A stretch of 64,000 nt of DNA from Ptychodera flava (lineage: Eukaryota; Hemichordata; Enteropneusta; Ptychoderidae), in the NCBI RefSeq assembly GCF_041260155.1, contig NC_091941.1:26885247-26949246 (forward strand). Reading direction: 5' to 3'. The translations under genes were made by a program, and so were the position numbers. The notes beneath the pieces were generated by a model. It saw nothing but the letters and a program-made list of their open reading frames with translations. It was not told the origin of the DNA and searched no databases. This document shows, in pieces, positions 25,898-63,329 of the stretch (the first letter of the stretch is position 1; every line of letters begins with the position of its first letter).

Positions 25898-27982
25898 ATG
25901 GCTTACATATTATTTGTTATCATACTTACCTTCACTCTTGCGAAAGCAGATTGCGGAGATGGATACTTTCCAAATGGCCTTGGAGATTGCATCTCTTGCT
26001 TATACTGTCGTTCCGGAAACCCTCCAAAAGGATGTGAAAAATGTAATTATTTAATGTTAATGACACTGTTGGCAGTAGTAGGCCTATCCTTGTTATATAC
26101 TCTGGCCGTAATTCCACCGCAAATTCAAATCGAGCACCAATTTTCACAGCTGTAACTGATCTAGCGAAGGGAGATTGAAAATGTTTAGCTGCAATAATAT
26201 GCCCACAGATTCTTGTCTCTGTATAGCCATAAGGTTCTGAGAGATTTAGGAACTCATGGGGCTTCAATTATTGCAGCCAGCAAAGCTGAACATTTTCGAA
26301 CAGTTAGAATGTACCCGATACTCTAACAGAGCGATTCCGCAAATTTTTTCACATGATGTGGAAAGTGAAAGTCCAATGCTAACAACTCGATCCCGTTTTA
26401 GTTCGGGACATTTTTGAAGTTGAATAATATCTTATAATTACCCTTATTCTTATTAATAGGCATCAAAGTAGCCACTTCTGGGGAGACAACGTGCAAACAA
26501 GGCCATTTTCCCAACGGTCTAGGGGGATGTGTTCCGTGTTCCTACTGCGGTTCCACAAAGTACCCACCATTAGAATGTGAATTGTGTAAGTCTCTCGTGA
26601 CTCATCATTAGCGCGACCCAGTTTCACATTTTGTTGTCTGCTTTGCTACCGTACGGTTTTGCGCGTGGAAAGGTCCAAGAAAGTAAGAAGTTAATAGTTT
26701 CGAGAGAGCCACCTTACCGTCGTTAAAAAAATGCGTGATGGTGAAGGACCCATGTGCAAACAAACTATCCTTTCCTAAGATTCTCTACTCTGATCGCTCC
26801 AGAGTGTTCCATTAGTAAATTGTGCATATGCTGTAGTTTTGGTGTCCGATACTAACATTTGAATGGCCGCTAATACCTGACTTTATCTTCCTTGACAGGT
26901 AAGCCCACGGGCGGTACAACAAAACCAACTTCCCTACCTTTACATTCAACAGGTGGGGGTGTTATCCAAGGGAATGAACTGAACGATGAAAGCCTCGAGA
27001 AAGGTATAGAGCGTATAACTCGCACGAATTTTTACAAAAACTGATAAAAATAGTGGCGGAAGTAGTAGTTTAGGGCTTCATCAACTTTATTTTGAATCAT
27101 GGGGAAAAGGCGCCAAGCTTGGCGCTTTCATCACGTGATATGACAGGGACCATCTTCTGATGGATATGGCATTGTCATTCACTTTCACACGTTCACACCA
27201 GTCTGTGCGTATTTGCATAACTATTATATTATACAAATACGTACATGTAGCCTGGTGTGAACGTGAGTGAGTGGACAATGCCCTGCTAGCATATATGCTA
27301 AAATCAGCCTTGGTGAACTTCCCCTTTGAATAGTATATCCTACTTTTAAAAACACAATGTCGAATTATATTCTAATTATATTGTGTACACAATTAATGCA
27401 GATGCCGATGTGCAAGTTCCATGGAGGATCTTTGTAGTCATAGCGGTGTCTGCATTAGTTCTGGTGGCTATCATATGTGCTGGAAAGTTAATTCACAATC
27501 GTCACTTTCGAACCGATACGAGGAATGGAGGAAATCCCACCGAAGATGATCACCACAGTCAAAGTAAGAACTTCTGCTGAATATTTCCCTTAAAATTTTG
27601 AATATGAAATCACACGAGAGTGGAACTATCAGGACGGGTCCCACCCGTGCCTCCACTTTTGCATGCGGGAAGTGAAATTGCTTGCAGCATCATGGCATCA
27701 CAATGATGACTTACCGTATTCAAGAGATATGAAATGTACATGTGGTCAATATCAATTTCAGGTGCTATGTTGGGCGACAGAAACACAGAGCTTGATAGTG
27801 TCGTCACCAATTCCAACGACATTCCTGATGGAGGTGATGCTGGGGCAGAAGGTTTTACAGAAGAAGCATGTGCTACAGCGAGCAAATGTCAAAATCGCAG
27901 CCATACACCTGTACAAGTATCAGAGAAAGTCTCTGGAGATACAGACTCAGTTATTATTCAATATGGGCGAAACAAAGTCTAG
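25898..27982 (+). CDS. Fn14/TWEAK-receptor-like TNF receptor family protein with two CRDs (gene 1)
   Basis: Five coding exons, all introns phase 1: 25898-26042, 26460-26585, 26899-27003, 27402-27563, 27762-27982; 252 residues. The ATG lies 4 bases after an acceptor (GTTACAG), so an upstream non-coding exon is expected. Order: signal peptide (1-17, ending AKA), CRD1 (Cys 19, 31, 34, 37, 46, 49), CRD2 (Cys 60, 72, 75, 78, 88, 91), a Gly/Thr/Ser linker, one membrane helix (about 133-156), and a ~96-residue acidic tail with TPVQVS (PVQVS at 229-233), a PxQxS TRAF-type motif. The CRD pattern C-x11-C-x2-C-x2-C-x8/9-C-x2-C is nearly that of human Fn14 (x12-2-2-8-2). The FPNGL before the second Cys recalls the aromatic-D-x-L turn of BCMA/TACI. 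It should act as a type I surface receptor for a TNF-family ligand; ligand unknown. It is the tandem paralogue of 37181-39180. Confidence 0.85.
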
Positions 27983-27999
27983 GCATGTAAATAGCTTAT

Positions 28000-30300
28000 T
28001 TATTTGAAAATTCTGGGCCCAAACTTATACTGATTTTGTTTTCAAAGCGCAAGACGAGCATAAAGAGGGCCCTAATTGACGTAAACAAAATTGAAAATAA
28101 ATAACATACAACTAAATGAAGTAACTGTAAATGCTTCAAACCAACAAATGCCAAGTCTTAATTTGTACAGATAGAGAGGGCAAAAGTAGGTCAATGATCA
28201 TAGAACAATTTTGGAACATATCAGTTCTTGATTGGCCTCCCTAAATTGTTAAAACAGATTTAGGTCTGTTGCTGACCTATGTCACCTGTCAGCCCTCCAG
28301 TATATCTAGTCAACCTGGCTTAGGCCTAAGCTATGCAATTATAGAGATGGCTGAACTTGAAGAGTCACGCTTTGGCATCTAGTCCAACTGTATACCAGAT
28401 CTGCGCCTGGATTTACATATTGTGTACTGTGATGGGTGAAAATATGTCCTTGGTAATCCTTCATTTTGGAGGACAAATTGATTATGTCATTTAAAGTCAA
28501 TCCTCTAGACTTAAAGATCCATTAGCAGTAACGTTGGTCATTTTTTATTTTGTTTGTTTCTGTGTATCATCTGCCGTTTCTGGTATAAATCGATCCCTGA
28601 ACTGTGGAGAAATTCCTAGTATTTAGCTCATAAACATACCTTATATATGCTTATAATCTGCATTGTTATTGTTTAAATTTTGTATTCAGGTCCGGACTAG
28701 AATACATTTATCAACAATAACAATGGTCATTTCATATATGCAGGCTGTGTTGGCAAGCAGGACACCTTGCATTGGTCATGATGATCGGATTATAGTAAAA
28801 TTCTGTAGTTGATACATTGAAACAGAGTAGTGAAAAATTAGTCAACAGTTACAGCTAATGTCCCTTTAAATAGCTGTGGCCTCAATATGAAAATGGCTTG
28901 AAATGGATTGGCCTTTGAAGAAGTCTCAGCTTGCCATGGAAAACAAAGTACTTAATTTTCTGCATCATCTGGAAGCTTTAGGTCACTTGAAAACTCCCAT
29001 GATGATATTTCGTCAACAGAATGTCAGTCAGGTTGTGTGACAAACGATAATATCAGGTGCTGAAGCAAACAGTATGGTCACTGGATTACCATGTATATTT
29101 TGATAAAAAGAGACCTTGTCTGTATCCAATTTGTGAAAAGTTATCTAAATATTTTACAGCCTCATATTCTTATTCAAAACAGTGTCACAATTTGCAGTAA
29201 ACATATAAAAATCAACATTTGATTTTTTTAAAGATTTAAAGAAATTACCTGTACATATTTCACAAAATAATACTCCATTGTCATTTTTCTGACTGAAGCA
29301 ATCAAAAATCATGTCCAGGACTCTACCAAGAGTTGCAGAGATAAACTGAGGGAAGACGAAACATTTGTCTGAATATCAGTTGGCAGCAGCCACTATTTTG
29401 TGTGCAAAAAATCTTCGATCCCAGTCGGGGCTATTTTATGCCACAATAATAAAGTGATGTGTATTTTTAAATTCAATCGAAATTTTCAACAGAATTTTGA
29501 ACAGTATGTATATACATGTATTTTGTTAAAAAGTATTTAATAATTTAAAAGAGAAAACTTTTTTACAGAAAAGAAAATGGCTATTGGTACATTCCTCTTA
29601 CTTATTATTAGCCATTATGAGTTTCGGATTGGATAAGGGTGCTGGTATCAGTCACTGTGTTATGCACACGCAGAGCACGCAACTATGATTACTGCACTTG
29701 TGATTGTGATTGTAAAGAAAAATTCCAAGTTTTTTTTCGACTTTTCAAATTCACTGTAGGCTGAGAATTTACAGATCAATGGTGATTGCAAATATTGAAA
29801 ATAAAGATTTAATCTTACACGAATCTTTTTTTGCTCGAGGAGCTATGATTAGACAATGTTTATTTTCAGTTACAATTTACTTTCTTAATTCTTTGTGAAG
29901 TAGAAAACCTCCTCCATTGAAAAAGCCTTGCAAATTAGACTTGCATTTAACGGTCCATTCCTTGCTATTGCCTGTTTTACTGGCACTTTGAATCTTTTGT
30001 TCCTATACCATAACCTTTTCTAAACTTTCCTGCATTTTTTCAAAAAAATGGACATAATGTAAACATGATACAGACAGCTTGTGAACAGTCCTAATATCAT
30101 CAAAACAAAAATGTTACCTAATTTCTTAATTATCCCTAACACAAGAATGTTTAAGCATCTGTGTCCTCCATGCTTTGCCAATAACTGGTCGAGGGTATGG
30201 GCTGTCTTATTAACAGGCACCATATGCAAAAAATTCCCGGAAAGGAAGACAAAGCAAAATAATCATTCAATGAAAAAGGAACTGAGGCAAAAGAGAAGCA
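28000..30300. other. Gene 1 3' flank/UTR and intergenic sequence
   Basis: Possible polyadenylation signals follow the stop codon (AATAAA near 28098 and near 29802), but the 3' end cannot be fixed. No further coding exon or clear repeat was recognised. Confidence 0.4.
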
Positions 30301-30309
30301 ATGATATGT

Positions 30310-30880
30310 GATGTAAGAGATGGTTTACTAAGGTACACTGAGAAGAATTACAGTTTTGCTGCAGGATTAAAAAACTAGCAATTTGAAAAATCTTCATCAC
30401 AGGATAATAGCTGCACAATATTGTAAACAACATGATCCGATGAATATAAGATGAACAGAAAACAATACACACTATGACACACTATAACTCTTCCTTATCA
30501 CTGTAATACATTTATTTCTGAAAATGTCATATTGTTATAATCTCAAGTATGGTTAGCCATGGGTTAGCAGAAAGAAGTTTATGACATATTTCATGGATGT
30601 GATTCTGCAAAAGCTTCATGCCAGTGTTCAAAGGGGGAAAAAATCCCTTGGCCCCTCCTTGCTAAAACTGCCATCTTCAATAAAAAGGGACGCTTTCCAC
30701 ATATTTACTGAATGACCTAGATGCAGATAAGTGCAAGACTTTCAGAAATGATAATGATAGAATGCTCATCATCATATTGTTTAATTGAAAAGAAAATATA
30801 GATTATTATCATCTGCATATGAATCATCAGCTCCCTCCTGCCAAATTCCTGAAGATTTAAGAAAATTTCTCGCAAATAGA
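30310..30880 (-). pseudogene. Decayed duplicate of the EML gene 3' end
   Basis: 30310-30735 matches the EML 3' untranslated region (about 41270-41730): shared order of ACTAG.AATTTGAAAAA, TAGCTGCAC, ATGATCC.ATGAATAT, CATATTG and CTTCATGCCAG. 30760-30828 matches EML intron sequence (42748-42828, CATCTGCATATGAATCAT). 30829-30853 matches the start of EML exon 14 (CAGCTCCCTCCTGCCAAATTCCTG). The real terminal exon (42484-42612) and most of exon 14 are missing. The junction at GAATCAT/CAGCTCCC looks like a deletion at a CAT microhomology. It carries introns, so it came from DNA duplication and not from a retrocopy. It marks the right edge of the tandem duplication. Confidence 0.8.
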
Positions 30881-30989
30881 GGGGCTCTGAAAATTTTTGT
30901 TAACGTCGGCGAGGGGGAGTGCGAAAAAACTTCGATGATATTTTATCTCCCCCCTTCCATTAATTGTACTCGTTCCCTCAAGATAAGTT

Positions 30990-31548
30990 GATAGGATGAG
31001 ATACTGTAAATGCAAATTTGCCTTTTTGCAGTTCGACGATGACATACCCTAATAACACAAGGTGACTCTATAAGATGCAGTAACGGTAAATGGCAAAGAG
31101 TATGACGGTATCAATTATAAGAAGGAGGTAAGCCGTGGTGACTGTTGTCACAGTCATAGTGCCAAGAATGAATATTTACGCCTAGATCCGATAGTGTACT
31201 CTCTGATACCTATACATTGAAATAAGTTGGTTTAACAAGCGTTTAAATTTGTAAAGAAAACAGCGAAGATTGCAGTTTAACAGTCTTCCCTACCATATGT
31301 CGTTGTCATCTATACAAACTATCAATCAACTTTGACGACGTGTGCGATGACTTTGCCATGCCATAGTAAGCTTATGAAGGCCCCTAAGGGACATTCTGTA
31401 ACGCCAAAAATATATTATATCATGCCACCATGCGCCATTCTGATTGGACGAGAGCTCATTCCACCGATGCTAAAATACTGTTTTAGCAGTGGTAAAACGG
31501 GCCCCTAAACCAGCATTTTTGAAAATTGCCCAGTCGGTGCATTTGAAC
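30990..31548. other. Intergenic, no gene seen
   Basis: Contains a small palindrome (GCTAAAATACTGTTTTAGC, near 31470) and a CCAAT-like GATTGGACGAG. No coding exon recognised. Confidence 0.4.
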
Positions 31549-31560
31549 GTACCGATCTAA

Positions 31561-34401
31561 ACTTTTTTTATTATTATTATTATTCAGAAAAGACAAAAAA
31601 CTACACAAGACAAAAAAGGACAAGAAAACAGAACAGAATCAAACATCCAAAAGAGCGACAAAAGCTCCCCATTTTTTGTATGTTTCTCGTGGTTATCAGT
31701 TGTAAAAGCTATTCGTTTTCGGTCTTGTACACAGAACGGACATAAGATTTAAACCATCGATATTTGGGGAGGTGTTTAAGTATTTACATCGAAAAATATG
31801 AAAACGACCCATTAGAAAAACAAAATCACCAAGTATATTAATTTGGTCACCAATTCCAAGTATACACTGCAGAGCGTTTAGCTTTATCCTAGTACGGTTA
31901 CACTATAAAACCACTCTTTTACACTTTGCCAAAATTTGGCTGTATAAATACAATCCCAAAAACAAGTGAAAATAATCTTCTTCAACCTCCTCGCAAAAAG
32001 TACACATAGGGGAATTAATCAAGCCCTATTTACGAAGCATACGATTTGTTGGTAAAATCCTCATAACCACTTTGTACTGGAAATTTCTCAATTTGGTATC
32101 TATAGTTAGTTTGAAAGGAAGTACAAATAGTTTGTTAGTGGGAATAATAACATCTAAAATATCATGCCAATATCTTATGATGTGTAAAGGAACATCAGCA
32201 GATGAATCTAATTTTAAGAAATAATTGTAGATATCTTGATTAATTTTAACACTAGAGAAGCAATTATTATTCCGACATTTAGGCTTACACACCAATAGTT
32301 TGGAAGATTTTGATTTTTAATCATCTTCTTCCAAGCACTCGGAATAGCATTTAAGATTTGTGTATAATCATAATGCGTACATATATTACCATACATTTCG
32401 GTAAACTTGTCAAAACTATAAAACTTACAATTAACATCCAGTAAGTCATTAATAAATACAACTCCATTCTCATATAGGTTTTTCCATCGAATTGGAAGCC
32501 CATTAATGCGGATTTTAGAATTATAGCAAATAAAAGCTTGACATGCATCGTCAGCGTTATTGACCATGGTATAGTTATACTGCAGCCATGCTAAAAGAAT
32601 TTCTTTGAAAAAACTAGACTTGATATGGTCGAAAGTGGAAAAGTCGCAGTTATTAATATTGGCGTAATAAACAAGGGAACCGCCAGAATCTGAAAGCATG
32701 GAATTATACCACTTGCTGCAAAACATACTGGTATTGCAAACAATTCTTCTAATCCAAGCAGCTTTAAGTGTCCTGTTGAAGACACGTAGATTTGTCAAAT
32801 TAAGGCCGCCCTTTTCATATGAGTTGTAATGGTGTCTCTCTTAATCCGGTCTGGTTTACCATCCCACAAGAAGTTAAAAATAAGGGTCTCATAATTCTTA
32901 AAAAAATCAAACCCAGGTGTTGGGAGGGACATAAATAAGTACGTAAACTGAGAAGTGACCAAAGACTTAATAAGAGCAACTTTCCCATAGAAGGTAAGAC
33001 CGCGTCCCTTCCATGGCTGCAGTATCTTTCTAGCTTTTTCAATGCGAGGACTAAAGTTGAAGTCAAGTAAATCTGCTAAATTACTCGGAATGTGTATACC
33101 CAATACATCCACAGAGCCATCTGTCCATTCTAAGGGACAAGGAGTGTCAATAATGAAATTTGTAAGTTTTAATGAGCCTATGCGCAACACCTTACACTTT
33201 TCATAATTAGGTTTTAAACCAGATATAGAGGAAAAATCCTTCAAAATATTTAGCAAAGCAGAAAAGGAGGTCGGAGTGGCCTGTATTGGAAAATTGGTAT
33301 CGTCAGCATATTGTGAAATTTTACTTTCGATCAAACCTGTATTTAAACCTTTTATAGCTCGACAATCTCTCACCCGAATTGCTAACATCTCAACGGCAAT
33401 AACAAATAAATAAGGCGATAATGGACATCCTTGTCGAACACCGCGTAAAAGATTAAACTTATCAGAAATATGACCATAATTTATAATGCGACTACAGAAT
33501 ATTGTTATACATTACTTTAACCCAAGTAATAAAAGAATGACCAAATTAAAAAATTCTAAAGATTTCAAAATCAAGTCCCATCTCACTTTGTCAAACGCTT
33601 TCTCAAAGTCGGCTATGAAGATCAAACCAGGTTTGTCTCCTCGCTCATAACATTCAATAATCTCTAAGAGCCTACGGATATTGTCAGCAATAAAACGACC
33701 ATGAATAAACCCCGTCTGGTCTTCATGAATGATATCTGAGATTACGCGCTTGACTCGAAGTGCAAGACACTTAGCTAAAATACGGGTGTCACAACAGAGA
33801 AGAGTCAAAGGCCGCCAATTTTTAGAAAAATTGGGTATTTATCATTACCCTGTGCGTCTTGTTTAATAAAAGTGACAATAAACCCTCCCTCTGAGATAGG
33901 GATAATGTCCCAGATTCATAAGAATATTTGAAAACACTGAAGCATGGGAGTACATAACTGTTTAAAGAAAACTTTGTAAACTTCAACTGGGATACCATCC
34001 AAACCGGGAGACTTTCCATGGGAAAGGAATTAATTGCTTTCCAGAGCTCATTGACAGTAATCGGACCTTCACAATAATCTGTTGTCACATCAGACAAACG
34101 ACGATCGTAATTATCAGGGAAAAAGACACCACAGTTCTTATCATTAAGTGGGGTGGTGGAACATCAAAAATCCATTTGTCATTGATAATATCAACTGGGT
34201 TAGAAAGAACAGTACCGTCAGTCTTCATTAACTTTGACACATTCTTACGCGAGTAGTTGCGGTAAATAAGATTGAGAAAATACTTGGTTGGACGTTCACC
34301 AGAGACACCCATCGTGCTCTAGCACGCGTCATAAGGTCAGCAGTTTTTTCACAATACAAATGCTCAAGTTCTTCCATTTTAGTTGCCAACTTTTGAGAAC
34401 C
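31561..34401 (-). mobile_element. 5'-truncated L1/Tx1-like LINE (2.84 kb), 12-bp target duplication
   Basis: The minus strand encodes an ORF2-type reverse transcriptase in several frames. In order: SGERPTKYFLNL (about 34280), HEDQTGFIHGRFIADNIR (about 33710), a DFEKAFDKVRW block (about 33590), the catalytic YADD (33299-33310), the thumb with WKGRGLTFYGKV (about 33000), and a C-terminal CTFCEEVEED...HLF knuckle (about 31990). The N-terminal endonuclease is absent, so it is 5' truncated. The 3' tail is (AAT)n/A-rich (31563-31583). GTACCGATCTAA flanks it at 31549-31560 and 34402-34413, a precise target duplication. At least four frame changes break the reading, so it is inactive. It lies between the two halves of the receptor duplication. 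Confidence 0.9.
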
Positions 34402-34892
34402 GTACCGATCTAACTTAATCCGAAAGTCCGCTTTGTTTCAAAGACCAAAGCCCGTCTCGTCGTAAATTCTAAGTTGTATTTTCTGTGTACGTTATCGATA
34501 TTTTTAATCGTTTGTAAATTGTAAAAGTAGAAAGTCATCAACTTTCTCTACGAATACGATTGGAACTAATTTGGGATAATTGGATCCGCATATTTTTCAA
34601 ATTTCTCAAAACTGTTAGATGCCCTATAGCTGATTGTCGCAATGTTCAAAATTACTCATAAAAACGAGTGTATAACTTAAAAAGAAAAGCAGATATGCCT
34701 ACATTTGCAGCAGAAACCGACATTACTTCACCGTCCAATTATCCCAAATTAGTTCCAATCGCGTTTAACAGTTTAAGTTCTTTACAAACAAAGTACTAAC
34801 AAACCGAACACGTCGATGTAACAAAATAATTCTACCAGATAAATGAGTAGATATGGCAGACACTATCACATGAGCAGCGGGTGACATTTATT

Positions 34893-35395
34893 TGCCAATG
34901 ATTCAACGTTTTAATGCACGATTCAGGTACAAAGAGTACACTCAGTCAGTAACCCTGTTTGACGATATGCATTGAAGACGTCAATGAAGGATCAATGAGA
35001 TCATAGTTGTGAATAACGTACACAATACGTGAACCTTACATGACAGCATATAATAATGGCACATGTTTGCTGAGTCATGTTGTCGAACAACCTTGACCTG
35101 GCTCTGTAACAGTACGATCTATAACAATGCAATTGTTTCACGAAGTAGGGGGTTTCCAATATGAAACAAATGTGCTCTTACAGTGATGATATTATAGGTG
35201 TGCAACATTTCTGAAAACTGCTTGAGCTACATTCCATGGTACCATACATTACTTTACTTTCAGTGCCCAGGATGTTCACTTTTTCCGTTTCAAATTCAAA
35301 TAAGCTTACATGTCTGAATTTTTTCTTCACGTTCTTTGTTTTCAGATTTTTTTGACATCTGTGTGAAGGTTTGCAATGTTGATGATGTCGGCAAT
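34893..35395. repeat. Segmental duplication, upstream block of receptor gene 2
   Basis: Partner of 23339-23860. The right end continues directly into the decayed promoter copy at 35390. About 11.55 kb separates the two left edges, which gives the present length of the duplicated unit (including the LINE inserted later). Confidence 0.88.
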
Positions 35396-35690
35396 TTTCA
35401 ATCGCCGGAAGGATACTCCTCATTCTCCACCTTTATCAGCCTGACGAACCCTACCACTGACCTCACATAAGAGGCAATTATTGCAAAACCGATAACTTTT
35501 CACCAACATTAATTCTCCGAATGTCTTCACGTACGATAGAGGAAGTTGTTGTACTGATTTGAATCATTTCGGCAAAAAGCACTGTGATAAGCTTACTTGT
35601 AAGGGGGTGTTCTTTTTATATTTTATACTGGAGTGGTTTTAAATATTATATTTTATCTGATCCAGACATTATCCATGAAATTCTATTGTC
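35390..35690 (+). promoter_or_regulatory. Diverged copy of the gene 2 promoter and first exon
   Basis: Matches 36595-36870 in order: GCAATTTTCAATC.CCG, CTCATTCTCCACC, CCTCACATAAGAGGCA, ATTCTCCGAAT.TCTTCACGTAC, TTTGAATCA.TTCG, TTTATACTG.AGTGG. The kappaB-like site and the TATA box are both degraded here (GGATACTCCT; TTTATCAG). It may be an old alternative first exon or a dead duplicate. Confidence 0.65.
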
Positions 35691-36615
35691 GGGGTATCTA
35701 AAACAAATCTGTACTGCTGTGAATTATGACCGTTCCGAGGGAAGGTAGCGATTATATGTGTCCCATTTCGTGGAAAGGAAACGCGTTTCTCGTGCGGCTT
35801 CTCCGAACCCTCGCTTCTTGTGTTAATGATTGATTGCAATGCATTGTATGCACCTCTTGTCCTACCACACTGTATAATGACTCAGTCCGATATGTGTAAG
35901 CTCACGCGAATCCACGGCCGGCGTAAGGACAAAGTTTCCTTGGGTCGACATAACAACACGATGAATCGACCGGTGACCATTGTGAGCGGAAGTTTGAACA
36001 AAATGAGTGACGATAAAATACTGTAAACAATGACATGAGTCATCGTTGTGAGAATTCAAGGTAACCGACCCAGAGAACAGTAACATTACATTCTTTAGAG
36101 TGTCACCAGTACTTCGTTCCGTTTCCTTAGTAAAAGCAGAGCGATTTCGAGTCCGTGATCATTTCGACAGCAAAGACATGCAGCCATATGCAATAACTTT
36201 TAAGATTTTTGCGCATATCTAATAAAATCACATCTATGTTAACAATTTGCAGTCAATCGGTTAATACCCGGGGTCGTCGTACTTCTGTTTGTTTAGTATG
36301 CCCGTCTTCAATCCGACCGTAAAGAGAGTTTGCCGAACGAGTGAAATGGGAGGTTTTGTTGTTGAGTTCATCCCAGCGGATGGGATGTTATTTTGTTTTA
36401 TGTATAAATATCTTTGGCAGTTATCATTGGGCCAGCGGAATTAACTTAAAAGTTACGGTTATATATCTGAAATTGTTCGCTTTTGTTTGCTTAAGTTTAT
36501 ACCAAAACCATGGCAGCATATAGTACCTGTAAACACAGGAGTTGTGTAGTGTTTTGTCTGTTTACATCATGACGCGTTACCAAAATGCTTTTGTCAGCAA
36601 TTTTCAATCACCGAA

Positions 36616-36793
36616 GGGGATTCCTCCTTCTCCGCCTATATAAGCCTGTAACGCAAACCTCACATAAGAGGCAGGTATTGCAAAACCTTTAAGTTTCTAT
36701 TCATCGACGTTTCATTCTCCGAATATCTTCACGTACCATAGAGCAAGTTGACGTACACACCGTGCCTGATTTGAATCACTTCGACAAAGCACT
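36616..36793 (+). promoter_or_regulatory. Receptor gene 2 core promoter and probable non-coding exon 1
   Basis: A kappaB-like GGGGATTCCT (36616-36625) is followed 12 bp later by TATATAAG (36637-36644), placing the start of transcription near 36668. A probable untranslated exon then ends at the donor CACT|GTAAGT (36793/36794). The next acceptor, TATAATAG (37169-37176), lies 4 bases before the gene 2 ATG. The whole block is duplicated at 35390-35690, and its upstream part resembles 25285-25305 before gene 1. Use of the site by NF-kappaB is inference. Confidence 0.55.
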
Positions 36794-37180
36794 GTAAGTT
36801 GTTCTTCTTCTCATCTTTTATTTTATACTGTAGTGGCTTTAAATATCATATTTTATCCGATCTTACAGGCATAGGACGTGTTCACATTTGAGCTTAAACC
36901 TAATCATTTACTTTTTCCTATAAATTTAATACCACTGTAGGTTGCTTGCTATCGATGGTCTGCGATTTAATAATGTCTAGATATGTACATTGAAATATAA
37001 ATATTGTCTTTTGTGTCTGCACTCTCCTATTTGTATTTTCAATGTTTCGTTTGTATACTATCAGGCTCGCCGATTGGGTGTATTGGTAACTTGTTGTTTG
37101 GAGGTTGATGATGGGTTTCACTTAAATTTATTTGTGTTGAATGTATAATCTCAAGATATATTTTCTTGTATAATAGGGCC

Positions 37181-39180
37181 ATGATTCCGGCTGCAAGTTT
37201 ACTAGTCATTGCCGTGCTGATCACGGGCTACGTGAAAGCAGACTGCGGAGGGACGTCTTTCCCGGACGGCCTTGGAGGATGTATCCAATGTGCCGTCTGC
37301 AATGCTGAATACCCTCCCAGAGGTTGCGAGAAATGTAAGTCCGATACCGATAGCATTTTTCCCTGTTTAATCACAATACCTCCACAAAACTGTTGTTTGA
37401 TATTATAGATGTGGAAAAAACCAAAATAATGTTTCTTTCAGTCGGAACTTTATGAAAGGACTTCATTCTTTTGTTTCTTGTACTCTTCACAGGTGCTGCA
37501 GCAACCGGTTCAGAGAAGGCAGATTGCGTGGAGGGGACATTTCCTGATAGTTTGGGGGGATGTGTTCCTTGTTCTTACTGCAAATCTGCAAACTCACCGA
37601 TTGGATGTGAGAAATGTAAGTCTATTGCTAATAACATGGCCCGTTTTTGAATTGTACTTTTGGTATGGTGATCTAAAGCTCAAATCAGAACACTGATTTT
37701 TTTTAAAATTTACTATTCACAGGCACAACTATCACACGCCCATCACAAGCGAAGACAAATTGCGGGAACGGAACGTTTCCCGACGGTTTAGGGGACTGTG
37801 TTCCATGCGCTTTCTGTAACTCTGAAAACCCTACAATTGGATGTGAAATGTGTAAGTCCAATATTAATAGGCTCGGGGTAATTAATCTACTCCCAATGAC
37901 CAAACACCGTCGTTGATGGACTTTCTGAGAGAAACGGAAGCATTCCTGATTTCAATCTCGGTTGTCTACACAGTGATTAAAATGGTCCTCAGTCAAAATG
38001 CAAAGTTCAGTGTAACTCCACAGCCTGTATGTGATTTCGAAATCTTTGAAAATGAGTAGGCCTATGGAGTTCAACAAATTTGTAGATAAACAGTAACTAC
38101 CGCCAAACGTTACTGCTCTGAAGTACGGAGAATCGCTTTGCGAGTAATTAAAATTTATAACACTTTTTATTTGTGGTATGAATATTTCCATTGCTAACAA
38201 CAAATATTTTATTTCTATTGACAGGTAAGTCTACCACTAGTAGTGTGGAACCAACTTCCGCAACTTCAACACATGAAAATTTGAATCCCGGAAAGGAAGC
38301 CAAAGAGGAGAAAGGTGAGCCTTTTCTGAAGATAAAATGATTCCGCTGTGCAAATTTCGCTGTACCTTTGCTTCAGTCGGTTCGAACTAACTTGTCTAAA
38401 CAAAGTAACACTGACAGAGTTTTATCATATTTGTTTACTGCAGGCGCTGAGGGAATACCGATTGGTTGGGTGGTATTCGCAGTAGTTGTAGCACTCTTAT
38501 TATTCGCCTTGTTGTTTGTTGTAATCGCTCTCTTCATTGGTCTGTACAAACGTAAATCAAGAAAGGATCCGTCCATCGAAGATGGCGAGAGCAGCCATAG
38601 TAAGGAGGCTTTACTTTTGTTAATTATAAAAAAATTGTTTTGACAGCTTCAAACTGAAATAGGGGAGAGGCAATACGGAATTCATGATATCGAGTTTTGT
38701 GATCTGTTGGTGCCTTAAATCAAATTGAGACTGTCGTGCTTCATTGTCTATGCTTGGATTCCAATTTAAAAGTTTATTTACTGCTGAGACTTTGAAAACA
38801 CGCCTATGATAACATGATTCAACCAACAATCAATCAGAATAACGTCATTAAAATCGTCCGGTTTAAAAACCAGAGCAAAGTGGAAGTAAAGACACTTTTA
38901 ATTTCTACCAATTACAGGAGGAATGTTACGCACAGACGATGAAGATTCACGAGAGAGTGTGACTGTGGACATTTCTCCTGATCCGGGAGGTGGAAGTCAT
39001 GCACAGGAAAATCATCCCTCAATCACGGGGAGTAGTTCTACCGTCGGTGGTTCATCAGACTCGTGTGCTGGTGAGGGCAGAGACTTAAGTGAGGGTCACT
39101 CACCTGTACAAGAATCACTTTTGCAATCAGACGATCAATCAGATCAGGGTGCCACAGATCTAGATTGGAAGGTTTCGTGA
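37181..39180 (+). CDS. Fn14/TWEAK-receptor-like TNF receptor family protein with three CRDs (gene 2)
   Basis: Six coding exons, all introns phase 1: 37181-37334, 37493-37615, 37723-37851, 38225-38314, 38444-38599, 38918-39180; 304 residues. Order: signal peptide (1-20, ending VKA), CRD1 (Cys 22-52), CRD2 (63-93), CRD3 (106-136), a Ser/Thr/Glu linker, a strong membrane helix (174-200) followed by YKRKSRK, and an acidic Ser-rich tail with SPVQES (PVQES at 280-284). PVQES fits the TRAF2/3 core (P/S/T-x-Q/E-E, compare CD40 PVQET). All CRDs read C-x11-C-x2-C-x2-C-x8-C-x2-C with FPDGLG or FPDSLG before the second Cys, closest to Fn14 in spacing and with the D-x-L turn of BAFF/APRIL receptors. Each CRD is one phase-1 exon, and the extra CRD relative to gene 1 is best explained by exon duplication. 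NxT glycosylation site in CRD3 (NGT). A polyadenylation signal candidate is AATAAA at 40572. Confidence 0.88.
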
Positions 39181-39199: not shown

Positions 39200-41240
39200 G
39201 TTATTTTAACTTATTTTTTATCGCCTTCCTTGTAAAACTATCCAAAGCAAGTATTCAGTAAAAACCTTTGTGATATGAGAGATTTTCGGCCATTGGAGTA
39301 TTGATGTTTGTTGTAAATCTCCAAGGGGTTGTGGAACAGGGTTATTGCGGCTGCACTATAGGGAAAAAGTGCGTGACTAGGGCGAGAAACTGACGCTTTC
39401 TCGCAATCGGTGAGAATCTGTTCTTATTCTCACTGCTGTCGGTGAGAAAATTTTAATCTCCGCTGGAGATTGGTGAGAAATGCACTCCGTAGCGAGAATC
39501 AAGTGTGAGAACAAATTCTCACCGGTGAGAATGGAAATTCTCACTAAGTACAGCGAGAATTGAAATTCACTGGCGAAAATCATCAAGACTCACCGTTCAT
39601 TGGCGAGAATCATAAAGACTCCAAACGGCGAGTCTTGATGATTCTCGCCAGTGAATTTCAATTCAAACGCTGCAAAGTGATGGCAATTCTTTCTTTCACT
39701 ATAACCAGAACTTTTGAGGACAATTCAAATTTTGAGCTGTAAGGTCAACCAAGTTATAGAAGATTGGAGTATTGTAAAGACTGGTATTTTCAAAAGATCC
39801 CTCTGTATTAATCCTTCATCATATCTTGCGCACAAACAAAGATCTCAGTATAAACCAAACGCCTCTCTACTCCTTCTGACGAAATGCCAGACTATTTATT
39901 TTATTCTTGTAAGTTTCCTGACACCTTCTGGTAGAGTTTTTAATTACTACAGAGAATCACTTTTTGGCAACACAAGTGCTCCAGTTATTTACAATAATCT
40001 CATACTTGTAGCAAAAAGATTTATGCAATGAAAATGAATGACAGAAAACCATTATGTGCTCTGTATTTGTTACAATTAAGCACAACTACCACCTACAGTA
40101 TGAAATTGCTTTGGGAAAAGACAGGTTAGAGACAAGTTATTGTAAATTGATTAAAATACCACCAACGATAAATGATAATTGAGCACTGTAACATCTTTAC
40201 TGTTACAAATGCAAACACAAAAAAAAATATTTATCGAGTCATTCTCCGGGGAATTCCCTTATGAAAGATACGTAGTCTGAAATTTTTAGACCAATAACAA
40301 TTGTCGTACTTTGATCAATTTGCCCAAAAGCATTTTCACACACAGTCTCAAACATTTTGGGTCTTTTATTGGTGTGACTATCAAACAGAGTGTGTTAAAT
40401 GTAAAGGGTCCACTAGCTTTTGGTGCTTAAGTGATTTGCTTCGGGTCACATGTGCCTCGCTGATCAAAACTAACAAATGTGAAAAACAGTATATGAATGC
40501 ATTTTTAATGTGACCAGCAGTCACTGTATATATGTATATATTTGTTAAATTAATTTTTATACTGTTATGTGAATAAAATGCTCAAGTAATGGTGGAATGC
40601 TGATTTTTCTGTTATGTACCTATCTTTCCCTCCTGTGTTCATTTACATGATGATGCATTGGTATCAACTATAGGATAGTAATTTTTGTAGGGTTAAGGTC
40701 CTCTGTTGTGAACATGTGACAAGTCAAGGTTTGGACAAGTGTGAAGAGTGAAAATTATTATTGCCCTGTTTAACCCTAGACCCTGGTTACTGCATCAAAA
40801 TACTTCCAGAATCAATTAAAATACCCATGCCATCATTACCAGATCAAACCATGAGCTTTCCCTCAATATTTCTCATTCAACACTATCCTGTTCGACGATT
40901 AGTGGATTCATGTTCCTATAAAACAACTGTTTTGAATAATTTTGCAGTACGTTTGTTTCAAAAATCGTTTAAAAAATGCTTTGTGGACAGTGTTACGATG
41001 CCAATCCCATGACACATATTTACTTTGCAACTTCAAACCATCAAAGATTGTTTGAAGAATTTGTTTCCAAGAAGGCTCTCTTAAATACTGAGGGAAAGTC
41101 TGGGTTTATATAGCGTTGCACTGTGCTAAACAAGCCATAATATTTGACTTACAGAATAACAAAGACTAAAATTATATATTCAATACTGGTTAAGAGGAAC
41201 TACCATGTCATGAAAGAGAAACACCCTGCATGAAATGAAA
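39200..41240. other. Gene 2 3' UTR/intergenic sequence with GAGAAT-rich patch
   Basis: 39380-39665 is dense in GAGAAT/ATTCTC motifs and ends in a foldback (39557-39664). AATAAA at 40572 may end gene 2 transcripts. Between gene 2 and EML, which converge here, no other gene was recognised. Confidence 0.45.
39557..39664. repeat. Foldback, ~34-bp arms
   Basis: GAATTGAAATTCACTGGCGA at the left pairs with TCGCCAGTGAATTTCAATTC at the right, and AATCATCAAGACT pairs with AGTCTTGATGATT. The loop is ~40 bp. It may be one end of a GAGAAT-rich element covering 39380-39665. Confidence 0.7.
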
Positions 41241-41245
41241 GAAAT

Positions 41246-42483
41246 GTTTTATTCATGTCAATTTAGGGGAATTACAGAGTTTGGAAAAGACTTTGCAAAG
41301 GATTGCAAAACTAGAAATTTGAAAAAACCTTTATTACAGGAAAGTAGCTGCACGATGTTCTTATAAAATTTGTAACCCACATGATCCAATGAATATCACA
41401 TGAAATTTTAATTTGTAAGGGTTTCTATTAGAAACAAGATGAACAGAATATAAAACACGTTATAACATACTGGACTCCCTTGTATTACTGTAATTAAAGC
41501 TATTTCTGGAAATATCATATTGCCATGATCAAGTAAGATTTACTATGGGATAGCAGACACTGAAATTTGTGACATTATCATGATGAGTCTATTCAAGAGG
41601 TTTATGCCAGCTTGCTCTAAGGAAAAACTTATATGGGGCCCCATCTTGCTGAGACAGTTAACCACAAAGACTAGACAGAGTAAATATAGAAACGTCCCAC
41701 ATCTTTCATCAATAATCTAGACACAGCAAAGTGCGTAGCAGATGTGCTAATACTAAACCAGTGGTATATGACAGCTGTCCACTCATGACCTGGGATGCCC
41801 ATCGGCGCAGACAGTTTGTGAACTGTGGCTCTTGTGGTTATCAGAATGAGAAATAATATGTGCATTTAGAAGGAACATTAATAACTATATAGCAAAAATT
41901 TACATAAACATAATTTCACATAAATCTATTTCAATGCTCAAGAAATTGCTCTTATTCTAACAACAACAAAATACAGCAGCAAAAAAGAGTGGATTTCCTG
42001 TACAGTGCAAATCACTTAAGGCAGTGTGTAAAACAAACTCTAAATGTATACATAATACAAACAGCAAACGAAACGGGTAACTTTATAGGTTACAGTACAG
42101 ATAGCAAAAGTTAGAAAATGCACTGTCAGTCTGGTTTCTTTTATAATGGTACATATTATACTTGATTTGACAGCCTTGACATTTGTATTTAACATGAAAA
42201 GGGGGCTGACATTATGATATTTGTAAATTGAGGTTGAGGGGGTTTTGGGGAAAAGTTCAAAGTTCAGTTTGCATTCAGTTAAGTAGTGATAATAAGAATA
42301 AATCAGAGTCTGATAGTTTAATTTTTGTAAATCTATGAACTGGAAGAATTCTGTTCTGGTTGGTGATTAGATTTATGGTACAAACATTCAGTTCTACGTT
42401 GAGATTTCTTTGGCAGTGGATACACACACTCTCTTCTTTGTCTTTTTTCTTCGTCATTTTTAGGGGTTTCATCCTATCGATGA
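41246..42483 (-). other. Probable EML 3' untranslated region
   Basis: Follows the EML stop codon. The first well-placed AATAAA on the minus strand that agrees with the extent of the duplicated copy is near 41246-41253. The left-hand duplicate (30310-30735) preserves this stretch better than the intervening intron. Confidence 0.4.
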
Positions 42484-45400
42484 CTAACTGCACAGTTTCC
42501 ATTGCATAATGCTCATGTCTTTGCCTCCTGTTGAGATGAGTCTGTTATCACTCTTGAGAAACCGTACACACGTCACATGACTGCTGTGTCCGCTGTATGA
42601 ATGACCATGTGACTGTTGGGAGGAAACAGAAAGAGAAAACATTTCAAGGTAACATCAAATCATCAACAAACATGGAAACAATGCAATCAAAACCTGAAAC
42701 ATGTTCTTTTGCTTTCACTGGTAAAAACTTTTGACAAAGTTTTTGAGAGATTGGTCATAATCATATTGTTTATTTAAACAAATGCGTAAAAGAAAGAAAG
42801 ATCATTATCATCTGCATATGAATCATATCTAAAATTGAATATGTATTGATACTTCACCACAGAGTATGACTGCAGTGTAATTGTGATCTACAAGACCAAT
42901 AATTTCTACCTTGGGTTGACAGCATGGATATCTGTACAGATTAACTTTTCCAAAGTCATCTCCGGTGGCAATTACGGTTCGATCATTGGATCTGCACACG
43001 GCATTCACATCGGAACCATCAGCTCCCTCCTGCCAAATTCCTGGAGATTAAAAAACTTCAAACTGTATAAAATTGTTAAGACTCTTTCCTAGCTCTAAAA
43101 TTTTGAAGACTTTGAATTTTAGACCCTAGCTAACACCTGCATCAAATTGTAAACAGTTTGTCAGTGTTTTTCAAGGTGGTCCCATTAATGTTTCGTTACA
43201 AGGATTTCTAATTGATCTAATTGATCCTATTGTTACTTTATTTTTTATAAAAGATTAATACTTTTTTCTAACTTATGATATAAAATAACTAATTTAATTT
43301 TTGCACTGAGTATTGACCCTGTTCCTCTTGTCAGATTAACATTTGGACTATATGGCAGTCAACGTTTTTCCTACATATTCAAGTATACAACTATGATTAA
43401 CAACATAAAAATCAATGGTTATATCTTGATAATGATAATTATCAGGTGACTCATATCATATGTATGTATAAAGGGGAAAATGTATAAAGAGAAAAGGCTT
43501 GATAAATATAGGAATTTTTTATTATAAGCTGTTTTGACTAGAGAAGTAACTACTTTTAAAACAAAAACTGACGTTTGGAATTATTTGTAGTGATTGCACA
43601 TAATGATACTTCCTAATTACTTAATGTTCTCATTTCTTTCTATTAATTAAAGGTCAAGAATCATGTGATATCAAGAATAATGTATGCAATCTATTAAATT
43701 TACAGGCACTTTATGTAAATACTGTATTATGCCAGTAGCCATGTTAGTTAACAGTCAGGGTAGAAGGGGATTCCCAATCTAAAAAAAAACATGATCATAC
43801 CAGGGGTCAAAGTTCACCTCTTTGTAAAGGTTCCTCATGCATTCACAATTCAATAACAAAGACTGAAACACTTATAAACTGATGTGTTGTCATTAAGAGG
43901 GAAAACAAATATTTTAAATAGAGTATGTGAAATACTGTGAATGGGGTGTTCACTGAGAATGAGTCAGGATTATTTCGTACCTACAGTATAGCATTTTGAC
44001 CTACAACCTACAAAATCCTTCAGCAACACTATTAATATATGAATTCTGAGTTTTATACTTATGTAGGTAAAAAGTTATTTACCAATACACATCTAAACCT
44101 AAAATGGAACTTAAATTCTGATGAAGACGCCATTAAACTCAAGAATGTAATATGCCTCCACACATTTTAAATAATCAAATGATATACCTAAACTAATATT
44201 GACACATATTTTAGATACTGATCATATTTCTAATAAAATAAGATGTCAAAGAAACATACCACAAACAGGGAATCCAATTGTACAATGATGGGTGGCCCAG
44301 TCGACATCTCTCATAGTTGAAGACGAGGTTACTTGCCGACAAGATGTAGCGTTCCCTGGTGAACAGTTAAAATATATCGCTTGATGAAATTTGCTGATAT
44401 GGACTATTGCTATTTGATCATTCATAGATGTTCACATATAGCAATTTAATATCATAATTACTCTACTGCAGATTGAAACTGTATACATGATATGTTAACT
44501 TTGAATATTGTTGTGAATTATTTATGCATTACAGCACAGTCTGCGGAGTGACTGTGGTTACAGTGATGTAAACTTTGAATATATTTGCATCACATATCAA
44601 GAAATACAAAAATGTTCTCAATCAGTCTTAAAAACACAGGACAAAAAAAACAAGATGGCACAATTGTATCACATTGAACAAACATTTACTGAGGAGGAAA
44701 AATTTAGGAATTCTTTCATGCACTCTTACACTTTCGTCGGAAAGATTTGTCGCTTCTAGGAAATGAGCAATGATTTCTTTCTTACGAATTACAATGAATG
44801 AACAAGATGTACTTCTTTTTCTATGTGCTGTGACCTTGCTTGTTTCTTTCATTAAAACAAAATGTTTCATTTTAGAAGCATTGTAAAATTTGAAAATGAC
44901 AACGACATACGTCGTAAAGCTTCCTTGGTCTTGGATGATATATCACATATAAAGACAATTTATTGGTGAATGAACATTGAGAAAAAGTTTAAAATTGACA
45001 TCAAATCTAGAAAACTCACAGAAGAGTACTTCATAATCGCCAGAGTTGCTTTGAATGTATTGGGAATCTGATGACCAGTCTAAGTGCGTGATAAAACTTG
45101 TGTGGCCCTGAGAGAAAAAAGGTTATGCAGAGAAATATAATGATAACTTTATTACACTACTATAGTCTGTGGATACAGGATGGTAAAAAATAATAATAAT
45201 AATTTAAATAATTTAAAAAATTAGAATAAAACTAATAAAACACAAGACAGGGAAGAAAAAAAATGATAATTGACAACCACAAGAAAATAAATTTGACACC
45301 ATCGTATTATATAGATTGATCAATAAACTAGTGTTAGTCAGTGGGTTATTGATTCATGGTTAATCATACCATGGCCTCAGTAAAGAGGCCGATGACTTCA

Positions 45401-48400
45401 TCCCTAGAGATTGAGAAACTTTACAGAGATGACTGTACAGGACACTGTATATCATACTCAAACAGATGACTAATCATTGATTGCTACAATTTTAAAAATA
45501 TCATATCCTTTTGGAGTGAAGGACATGTATCCTATTGCATTATATTTATCAAAGCTTAATGCCTTGGTTTGTTCAAGCAAAGGTATCCTTAGTTCAGTAT
45601 TATTAGGTTAAAGTAGGATATCCTTATAATTACAACCTTTCTCTAGGAACTATGACGCAACCCACTAGCATGTTTCCTTATCCTAAATCATTTGATGACA
45701 GCTTTTGATATGTAAAGTCACACAGTTGGCAACTTGTCAGATACTTTATACATGAGCTAAACAAGGGGATTCCCCAATGTCTGGTGTTTTGAAAGCATGT
45801 CACCATAGACGGTGAAGTATCAACAACAGAAACTTTTCAACAGTGTAAGAGCATAATATATTAGATAAATTACTAGATTTTCAGATTTACATTGCAAAAG
45901 CCTTTATGGCCTTTTTGAACTGACACAAAGGATCTTAGGAACCCCTAGACAATGATTTGTTTTTACGATGGTTTGAATGCAATACATATTCACTTTGAAC
46001 ATTACCAGCCTTTTACACTATGCATCTACAAGGCAAATCCTTTAATTTAGGACAATAAAATTGTAGGTTTTACACCTAATTCCACAATAACAGTAATCCC
46101 TATTTGTACAACCATTAAAAGGAATATGACCACACACACACAAAACATCACATGACAATTGTCAAAATTCTGATGGAACAATAAAACAAATTTAATTACC
46201 CAATTAAAAAAAATTTGTCAAAAATTGAAATACTGTGGCACAATTTATATAATTGAATCAACAATTTACTATGATAACTATGATTTTATCTGTTAATCAG
46301 TCATAAACTATTTGATAAAATAATCCATAATAATTTACATCTACACATATTTCATGTCACAACAAGCGTCTGTTGTCAATATAACCAAAGAACAGAGTTT
46401 CACATTGTACCATCCATATCAATGTCCAATGCAATATGGTAAAATGAATAATAAACATTATCAACATGTGAAAAACGACTATGAATTTCTTGTCTGTTTT
46501 GTTTAATAGGTACGATCCACTGAATAAACAAACAAACAAATAAACTAACTAACTAACTGACTGACAAAGCAAAATGTGAATGAGACTTCCTCTTTCCTAC
46601 GATTCTAACATACTAGATTTACGATACAAGCCATTTTGACTATTTTAATGCAAATACATATGATGCTGTTTGAGCACGAGTATATAGTCCTGAAAAATTA
46701 TCACAACATAGTCGTTTACTTAATTTCATTAATGCAAGCACAACTCTGTCAGGTCCAATAGAGAAAACTATAAATACAACAAGGAACCTACTGCATATCA
46801 CGACCATGAATATCTCTAAATACACCTATCAGGAAGTACTAAATAGGGGCATACATAAATAGTCTAAGCCGATTCACAGAGGTGTAACTCATAATAGTTA
46901 AAATCTTCACAATTATTTCACAAACTACAGTCTCTCTCTCTCTTGTGCATACTGTCGAATGAGCAATGAAGAAATTTTAGGGTGAATGACCAAGTGATTG
47001 TACACCAACATAGCACTATGGCTTCAACAGAAAGGAACAGTCATCACCTTTCTCAGTCACCCACGCTATTCTATCAATCGTGTTATCAGGGCTAAAATGG
47101 TAGTAACATTCCTGATTTTATCATCAATGAATGATTCACATACTGGTACCAGCATACCTAGTATGTACTTTGGAGGCAAGGCCACTGATACGTGAAACCA
47201 TAACAAAAAAGTTTACTTCCAGACATTTTTCAAATGTATTCTTTACAAATGATTGCGAGGTGTGGCTCGATTGCAACACACCACCTACACCGAACCCATT
47301 GCAAACACTGCAAATATTTGTCTAATCAACAAACGTTCTTTATTGATGAAATGAATGAAAAACAGAAAAAAGAAATACATGTTGCTGGCAGCATTATTTT
47401 GACTAAAGGGTGGAGTCAATCTATTTGTAAAATTTCTCCTTTGAAAGCTGTAATTTAAGACAAACAGGTCAATGTCACATCTCACAATTAAATCATTTCA
47501 GAAAAATTTCAGATATGCCATTATCATGACTTCAATCACCTCACGCAAACAGTAATCACCTTTTGTCAAATGAAGACAAAACACCCATGTACACGCTACG
47601 ACACACCCACATTTCACACATGTGAGTCAGCATCACTACTGACATCAGTAATCAAAGAAAGGTTATTGTAAAAACTTAACACAACATTTGTTTAAAATGT
47701 AAAATCAGATATAAAAGTTATGTAACTTACATTACATCTGCCCACTTTATTGTATTTGTAGCCATTCTCACTAACTGCATACACATATATGTAATTGTCA
47801 TGGGAACCAATAGCTAGGTAGTTACCATCTGAAAAGGAAATTCAAAAATATTTCAAATTAAAAAATATGTTGTCCTCTTTATATTTCATTGATTAACCCT
47901 TTTGCTGCCAAGTCCATATTTCACCACCAGGTCAAGATGGTTAAAATTAATGAAACACAACATATTCCATGAGGTGTATTTTAACATAATACTGTATATT
48001 GAAAGCTGTTGAAAACATAAATACTGTAAACTTGATTTTTTTGAATAAAGGTGTTATAACAGACCGAGCCAAGTGGGTGAAAATACGTCATGTTTTGGCT
48101 CAATACCGCTTTTTACTGACTTGGCTGATGGGGAAGTGATAGTCTGGCAGGGAATGGGGTTAAAAATAAAGAATCACTTTGCTGAATGATATCTTATTTC
48201 CTTTGTGAAACTTAAAAATTACTAGTATCCTCTTTCCTTTGTGAAACATAAAAATGTTACATATCCATTATGGAAACATAACATTAACTGGCTACCAAAA
48301 ATAATCAGGTTTTACAATTACATATCACAATCTGAAGTAAGCCATGATTTACACTTAGAAACTCTGCAGCAGTGTTAAGTGAGTTTCAATCAACTTCCAT

Positions 48401-62587: not shown

Positions 62588-63320
62588 ATTGTGTTTTTAT
62601 CGTTTTTAGAAAGTTTAGCTGGAAGTTTAGAAAGCTAAATTAGAATTGTCTAAATCAAAATCTAAACTTAGAAAGTTTAGCCAGAAACGATAATTATCGC
62701 TTTCTAAATAGCGTTCTAAATTTAGAAATTAGCTGAAGTTTAGAAAGTCGGGCCTCGGGTGAAAACATTTTTCCAAGGATATATCGGATAAAAACGATAA
62801 TTATCACTTTCTAAATAGCGTTCTAAGTTTAGAAATTAGCTGAAGTTTAGCTGAAGTTTAGAAAGTCGGACCTTAGGTTGAAAATTTTTTTCCAAGGATA
62901 TATCGGATAAAAACGATAATTATCACTTTCTAAATAGCGTTCTAAGTTTAGAAATTAGCTGTAGTTTAGAAAGTCGGGCCTTAGGTTAAAATTTTTTCCC
63001 AAGGATATATCGGATAAAAACGATAATTATCACTTTCTAATAGCGTTCTAAGTTTAGAAATTAGATGAAGTTTAGAAAGTCGGGCCTTGGGTGAAAAATT
63101 TCTTCCAAGGATATATCGGATAAAAACGATAATTATCACTTTCTAATAGCGTTCTAAGTTAGAAATTAGCTGAAGTTTAGAAAGTCGGGCCTTGGCTGAA
63201 AAAATTTGTTCTAGGATATATCGGATAAAAACGATAATTATCACTTTCTAAATAGCGTTCTAAGTTTAGAAATTAGCTGAAGTTTAGAAAATCGGGCCTT
63301 GGGTGAAAAAAATTTGTTCG
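62588..63320. repeat. ~107-119-bp tandem repeat, about six units
   Basis: The landmark TATATCGGATAAAAACGATA recurs near 62781, 62900, 63007, 63115 and 63217. Each unit also carries CACTTTCTAAATAGCGTTCT, AGAAATTAGCTGAAGTTTAG and AAGTCGGGCCTT. The first unit (62588-62760) is diverged. The unit holds a self-complementary AACGATAATTATC core. Confidence 0.88.
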
Positions 63321-63329
63321 AGGATATGT

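Follow-up and report, generated by a model that had tools for sequence, protein, structure and literature searches.

In a 64,000-nucleotide stretch of the genome of the hemichordate Ptychodera flava (NC_091941.1, positions 26,885,247 to 26,949,246; hereafter the window, with positions counted from its first letter), two neighbouring genes on the forward strand encode what we consider, with a probability of roughly 0.7, to be paralogous type I receptors of the TNF receptor superfamily, which arose by tandem duplication and would signal through TRAF adaptors after binding a TNF-family ligand. Gene 1 (25898-27982, 252 amino acids) has five coding exons and two six-cysteine modules, and gene 2 (37181-39180, 304 amino acids) has six coding exons and three such modules. 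Both proteins are laid out as a signal peptide, the modules, a linker, a membrane helix and a cytoplasmic tail. A first-pass annotation, made from the letters alone, had described two complete genes of this kind, and they are indeed present; the tails, which it had called short, measure 99 residues in gene 1 and 105 in gene 2 as cut here. The coding exons are as follows.

25898..26042, forward strand: gene 1 exon 1, signal peptide and module 1; the intron splits the last codon
26460..26585, forward strand: gene 1 exon 2, module 2, C-x11-C-x2-C-x2-C-x9-C-x2-C
26899..27003, forward strand: gene 1 exon 3, linker
27402..27563, forward strand: gene 1 exon 4, membrane helix and start of the tail
27762..27982, forward strand: gene 1 exon 5, cytoplasmic tail up to the stop
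37181..37334, forward strand: gene 2 exon 1, signal peptide and module 1 (FPDGL)
37493..37615, forward strand: gene 2 exon 2, module 2 (FPDSL), the module used for the structure model
37723..37851, forward strand: gene 2 exon 3, module 3 (FPDGL)
38225..38314, forward strand: gene 2 exon 4, linker
38444..38599, forward strand: gene 2 exon 5, membrane helix and start of the tail
38918..39180, forward strand: gene 2 exon 6, cytoplasmic tail up to the stop

The splicing of both genes, as predicted from the genomic sequence, is regular: all nine internal introns (four in gene 1 and five in gene 2) have a GT donor, an AG acceptor and phase 1, and the internal module exons are therefore symmetrical. 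Each module corresponds to one exon, with the first exon of either gene encoding the signal peptide in addition. In genes 1 and 2 alike, an AG acceptor ends 4 nucleotides upstream of the ATG, which suggests an upstream non-coding first exon. Judged by hydropathy, both proteins have type I topology with a signal peptide and a single helix. Consistent with membership in the TNF receptor superfamily, their ectodomains contain six-cysteine modules of the size of a cysteine-rich domain (CRD), and every ectodomain cysteine lies inside a module (12 of 12 in gene 1 and 18 of 18 in gene 2).

The modules are 31-32 residues long, are 50-62% identical to one another (tblastn) and have 11 invariant columns. 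The cysteine pattern proposed in the first-pass annotation, C-x11-C-x2-C-x2-C-x8-C-x2-C (gaps 11-2-2-8-2), holds for four of the five; gene 1 module 2 departs from it, with x9 for x8 (11-2-2-9-2). A six-frame search of the window with the pattern returned exactly these five modules, compared with a single match in 100 first-order Markov windows taken together, which excludes chance as their origin, and neither the pattern nor tblastn revealed a further copy in the window. In all ten module pairs, the third codon position was the most variable (the extra codon of gene 1 module 2 having been dropped beforehand), an excess that marks coding DNA. Outside the window, the pattern search gave 42 matches in viral contigs, none of which was confirmed as a relative, and nine in prokaryote genomes, of which one, on a planctomycete contig, was confirmed over 11 residues only. 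Among the open-licence papers listed, none presents an invertebrate protein with repeated Fn14/BCMA-like modules in its title or in the first lines of its abstract; database gene models of them may well exist.

Family assignment and predicted fold

Membership of both genes in the TNF receptor superfamily is likely. The reading of the modules in the first-pass annotation as TNF receptor modules of the BCMA/Fn14 class is supported, although by several lines that are each weak: the cysteine spacing, the matches in the PDB, the TNFR score, the predicted fold and the structural comparison in which BCMA comes first, formally tied with two other rows. A search with the whole gene 2 protein against 177,635 PDB sequences listed 11 matches, six to the membrane helix (the best being integrin alpha-IIb, 0.039) and five to the modules, namely Fn14 (E 0.12), three BCMA sequences (0.13 to 0.26) and UL144 (E 6). 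With a profile of the modules as query, ten of the 14 rows were BCMA sequences (0.027 to 0.22) and one was Fn14 (0.84). As a yardstick, a search with the Fn14 of PDB entry 2kn0, which we take to be that of Xenopus, recovered human Fn14 and, up to E 10, no BCMA. The window modules recover both, and this suggests for them an intermediate position in sequence. The sole Pfam model listed was TNFR_c6, for two of the five modules and with at best 16.8 bits against a curated cut-off of 29.4. Because Fn14 itself reaches 17.2 bits, likewise below the cut-off, and BCMA is unlisted, a low TNFR_c6 score is normal for this class, and the cut-off does not separate it. When all non-cysteine columns were shuffled, p was 0.0005 for BCMA, 0.002 for 2kn0 Fn14 and 0.16 for human Fn14, values that are not clean probabilities because the targets were chosen as best matches.

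One module of the five, gene 2 module 2, was modelled with AlphaFold and is predicted to form a hairpin plus helices. In the structural comparison (VIA list), the first five of seven rows are BCMA, formally tied with the last two, and the BCMA rows cover 30-34 residues of the module; Fn14 and TACI are absent from this list, which has no bearing for or against either. In known members of the class, the disulfides are C3-C6/C4-C5 in Fn14 and C3-C5/C4-C6 in BCMA.

The turn that precedes the second cysteine links the modules to BCMA more closely than to Fn14. BCMA has D at C1+7 and L at C1+9, and so does each of the three modules of gene 2; PDG, like PNG, is an ordinary turn former, which calls for caution with both D-x-L and N-x-L. 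Fn14, BCMA and TACI are described as contacting their ligands mainly through an Asp-x-Leu or Ser-x-Asp-Leu motif at the tip of the hairpin (PMC8024323), and D45, K48 and D62 of Fn14 are reported to matter for TWEAK binding (PMC3648529). These three residues are identical in both Fn14 sequences compared, and none of them has an equivalent in any of the five modules when placement is anchored on the cysteines (0 of 3 in each). The first loop is one residue shorter than in Fn14, so that in gene 2 the place of D45 could be taken by the D at C2-5. With D and L at the BCMA positions in gene 2 and the TWEAK contacts absent, the turn is therefore more BCMA-like than Fn14-like, while the cysteine gaps are Fn14-like. 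Thus, of the mixture of both signatures that had been proposed, the Fn14-like spacing and a BCMA-like D-x-L in three of the five modules stand, whereas the TWEAK contacts are missing from all five.

Several results limit a BCMA/Fn14-type assignment. Both gene 1 modules have N-x-L, with N for D, so that the D-x-L turn noted at first pass is confined to gene 2. The Pfam models stn_TNFRSF12A, BCMA-Tall_bind and TACI-CRD2 were listed for none of the five modules at E up to 10, an absence limited by the HMMER filters, which drop most matches above about 0.1. On their own proteins, the specific models give 4e-23 for BCMA and 1.4e-7 for 2kn0 Fn14, and TACI-CRD2 gives 5e-4 on the BCMA sequence, below that model's cut-off. 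The support that the first-pass annotation had asked for, best matches to modules of TNFRSF12A/13/17 type, comes from the PDB sequence searches and not from the models specific to the class. Unrelated proteins appeared in the profile search (the complex I subunit NuoI at 0.05 and two rows of TRABID at 2.8), and gene 2 module 1 alone found Fn14 (0.78) together with three complex I rows. The shuffle p for the NuoI fragment was also 0.0005, equal to that for BCMA, and hhalign gave 94.5 for BCMA and Fn14 together, 81.5 for NuoI and 67.4 for Fn14 alone. Since this ferredoxin control performs as well as the TNFR matches, sequence alone cannot decide the family. In the structural comparison, too, the last two of the seven rows, which are not TNF receptors, are formally tied with BCMA.

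The ferredoxin-type motif of NuoI was itself rejected as an identity for the modules and kept as a negative control: about 20 residues are matched, and these include neither C1 nor the C5/C6 pair. A weak ferredoxin match (Fer4_2, E 0.35) is obtained with Fn14 as well.

Cytoplasmic tails, mechanism and alternatives

Both tails carry sequence matches to TRAF-binding motifs, CD40-like in gene 2 and weaker in gene 1, which the first-pass annotation had missed.

27908..27922, forward strand: PVQVS tail motif of gene 1, a weak match to the TRAF-type PxQx[ST]
39103..39120, forward strand: PVQESL tail motif of gene 2, which fits Px(Q/E)E and is one residue from CD40 PVQETL

PMC6125299 gives PVQETL as the TRAF2 site in CD40 and describes the general motif as Px(Q/E)E with an acidic or polar residue next to it on the C-terminal side. 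The tail of gene 2 reads GHSPVQESLLQSDD near its C-terminal end, and SHTPVQVSEK stands at the aligned place in gene 1; when 85 residues of the gene 2 tail were compared with the gene 1 tail (tblastn), the match was at the PVQ block only (E 0.05). Shuffling the gene 2 tail produced PxQE in 1.7% of trials, and when the two tails were shuffled as a pair, 0.12% of trials had PxQx[ST] in each; the motif had been chosen after it was seen. The gene 1 tail also contains PTEDDH, a match to the TRAF6-type PxExx[FYWHDE] that arises in 4% of shuffles. The Pfam scan of both whole proteins listed no TNFR or death domain, and the tail peptide had no match in the PDB. Where a TNF receptor would have a death domain or a TRAF motif, PVQESL in gene 2 and the weaker PVQVS in gene 1 are the predicted candidates for the latter. 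A TMEM154 match in Pfam (E 7e-5) falls outside the modules and contains no cysteine module.

From the computed gene structure, module pattern, duplication, predicted fold and motifs, we infer the following mechanism. Each module would fold as a short beta-hairpin plus a helix-loop-helix, held by three disulfides, in the CRD class of BCMA and Fn14. A trimeric TNF-family ligand would be gripped by the hairpin tip (in gene 2, the D-x-L turn) of one or more modules, and its binding would cluster the receptors. The clustered tails may then recruit TRAF2/3-type adaptors at PVQE(S), with the signal passing via TRAFs and not via a death domain. In gene 1, where both modules have N-x-L and the tail motif is the weaker one, the ligand or the strength of the signal has probably changed.

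How the pair relates to the named families can be read in more than one way. At close to, but just short of, even odds, the genes form a lineage of their own within the TNF receptor superfamily, perhaps closer to receptors of the Wengen type or to others of invertebrates, which either arrived at the compact BCMA/Fn14-like module or retained it from an early stage. The weak match of the modules to every named family is consistent with this, as are the grouping of Wengen CRDs with some CRDs of hemichordates, amphioxus and human (PMC11377715) and the compact module of similar topology that Grindelwald shows outside the vertebrates (PMC8024323), although BCMA and Fn14 remain the top matches of the modules. 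It is more tentative, and rather unlikely, that the genes belong to the TWEAK/BAFF/APRIL receptor branch, as descendants of an Fn14/BCMA/TACI ancestor with a TWEAK- or BAFF-like ligand. Such a descent would account for the Fn14 gaps 2-2-8-2 in four of the five modules, the BCMA-like D-x-L in three, L-G-x-C in all five and the first, though tied, place of BCMA in the structural comparison; it is harder to square with the absence of D45, K48 and D62 from every module, with the silence of the Pfam Fn14, BCMA and TACI models on all modules and with the lack of the D in gene 1, and the short CRDs are described as giving poor phylogenetic support (PMC11377715). The suggestion made at first pass that the pair may represent an early form of this branch is likewise conjectural; modules of about 31 residues can scarcely bear a tree of that kind.

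Two further alternatives concern what the proteins do or are. That one or both of them, and at least gene 1, act as a decoy or ligand sink, binding without productive signalling, is improbable: gene 1 lacks Px(Q/E)E and has the weaker PVQVS, but both tails retain the PVQ block and gene 1 also has PTEDDH. We regard as quite improbable a non-TNFR cysteine-rich surface protein with a chance likeness (another six-cysteine module, an adhesion protein or a TMEM154-like protein). The sub-threshold Pfam scores, the TMEM154 match outside the modules, the ferredoxin control that equals the TNFR matches by sequence and the non-TNFR structural rows tied with BCMA would fit such a protein; however, the ferredoxin match is short, misses C1 and C5/C6 and has a counterpart in Fn14, the BCMA rows cover 30-34 residues of the module, and the TMEM154 match holds no module. 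Overall, the results favour a pair of TNF-receptor-superfamily paralogues with TRAF-type tails and no death domain, of which gene 2 would retain the ligand turns and the docking site and gene 1 would have changed in both.

A bolder version of this receptor-pair reading, speculative and in our judgement unlikely, is that the genes are a non-vertebrate pair of BAFF/APRIL/TWEAK type in which a D-x-L module is repeated for avidity, the tail carries a CD40-type TRAF2/3 site and the turn of the partner has changed from D to N. If true, the wiring from TNF ligand to TRAF (perhaps NF-kB) of the B-cell survival branch would predate the vertebrates or exist outside them. According to Marin 2020 (PMC7674686), evidence that TNF ligands activate NF-kB in an invertebrate was lacking at the time. 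Which ligands the TNFRs of invertebrates bind, and what those without a death domain do, were named as open questions by Quistad and Traylor-Knowles 2016 (PMC4979521). A receptor with a TRAF2/3-type site and BCMA-like turns would make the questions of both papers testable in one animal, and the tandem pair, D-x-L against N-x-L, would be a natural experiment on ligand choice.

The tandem duplication and its surroundings

The sequence indicates that the receptor pair was made by a segmental tandem duplication that took along the 3' end of a neighbouring EML1-like gene. Gene 1 and gene 2 align in the modules, with a weaker match around the linker exon (E 0.02). The gene 1 module 2 exon and its upstream intron align with gene 2 exon 3 (59%), and at the protein level (tblastn) gene 1 module 2 gives 59% to gene 2 module 2 versus 51% to module 3. 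Between the receptor genes, 30290-30863 matches blocks of the EML1-like gene; the duplication would therefore have carried a receptor and the EML 3' end, and the EML copy then decayed. The correspondence of 30290-30863 with 41213-43055 marks the extent of the duplication. The features of this region are as follows.

30290..30863, no strand assigned: decayed copy of the EML1-like 3' end between the receptor genes, with collinear blocks 41213-41734, 42724-42826 and 43008-43055
32798..33838, reverse strand: remnant of a reverse-transcriptase element between the receptor genes, probably longer both ways (RVT_1 on two of the three pieces tested)
35386..35662, forward strand: second copy of the gene 2 5' segment, 73% to 36592-36862, with GTGATA in place of the GTAAGT donor
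36592..36862, forward strand: segment that probably holds the promoter of gene 2 and its non-coding first exon (putative role), with TATATAAG at 36637 and GTAAGT at 36794

The candidate non-coding first exon of gene 2 would span 36592-36793, ended by the GTAAGT at 36794. NF-kB-like sites are found about 600 bases before the gene 1 start codon (GGGGAATCCT at 25294) and about 565 before that of gene 2 (GGGGATTCCT at 36616), but they carry no weight because the pattern occurs 22 times in the 64 kb, which is background.

The EML1-like gene, which encodes a microtubule protein with a WD40 propeller and a HELP motif, adjoins the receptors on the reverse strand (about 42910-54802). Its exon at 42910-43047, which the last EML block overlaps, matches PDB 4ci8 at E 6e-17; a match at E 1e-55 lies at 49242-49730 and the HELP motif at 54476-54802. 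Directly downstream of gene 2 is an inverted repeat (39557-39664) with arms of 41 nucleotides that are 95% complementary. Farther away are a paired-box-like open frame on the reverse strand (58655-59113; Pfam PAX, E 1e-11), either a Pax-related gene or a transposase, and two tandem repeats, one with 10.6 copies of 150 bp (3719-5291; overlapping open frames of 304, 104 and 100 codons and no single continuous frame) and one with six copies of a 107-bp unit (62685-63335).

Comparison with known receptors

BCMA resembles the window modules in the predicted hairpin plus helix-loop-helix, in how far D-x-L stands from the first cysteine (gene 2 only) and, for three modules of the five, in C-V-P-C against C-I-P-C, and it heads the structural rows, though tied. 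It differs in its cysteine gaps (12-2-3-8-3 against 11-2-2-8-2), and the Pfam BCMA model is unlisted for the modules. BCMA has one module and no classical signal peptide, whereas the window genes have two or three modules and a signal peptide. The modules share with Fn14 the gaps 2-2-8-2 (four of five) and, in all five, the L-G-x-C of 2kn0; like Fn14, the proteins are single-pass, lack a death domain and have a similar sub-threshold TNFR_c6 score. They differ from it in the first loop (x11 against 12-2-2-8-2 in Fn14) and in D45, K48 and D62, which are not kept, and the Pfam Fn14 model is unlisted. Fn14 is described as having one module and a short tail (PMC3648529), unlike the multi-module window genes with tails of about 100 residues. 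Orthology to Fn14, considered as a candidate, is weakened by the missing TWEAK contacts and the unlisted Fn14 model, and in the tests made here the genes fail strict membership in either the Fn14 or the BCMA family.

The second CRD of TACI is named alongside BCMA and Fn14 (PMC8024323). Its Pfam model TACI-CRD2 is unlisted for the window modules. TACI has two compact CRDs with a D-x-L turn, compared with two or three modules here; as TACI is already multi-module, the earlier suggestion that a multi-module receptor looks lineage-specific loses force. CD40 has an ectodomain of canonical CRDs, unlike the window genes. Its likeness to gene 2 lies in the tail, PVQETL against PVQESL (PMC6125299).

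Grindelwald and Wengen of Drosophila resemble the window genes as invertebrate TNF receptors with a compact CRD. Neither is known to have repeated modules. The topology of Grindelwald is said to be similar to that of Fn14 and BCMA; its module differs in having 8 cysteines (X2-C2) and, in the account given there, no D-x-L motif (PMC8024323). A published attempt at a CRD phylogeny reports support that was too low (PMC11377715, section 11), and in the comparison published in the same article the CRDs of Wengen group with some hemichordate, amphioxus and human CRDs.

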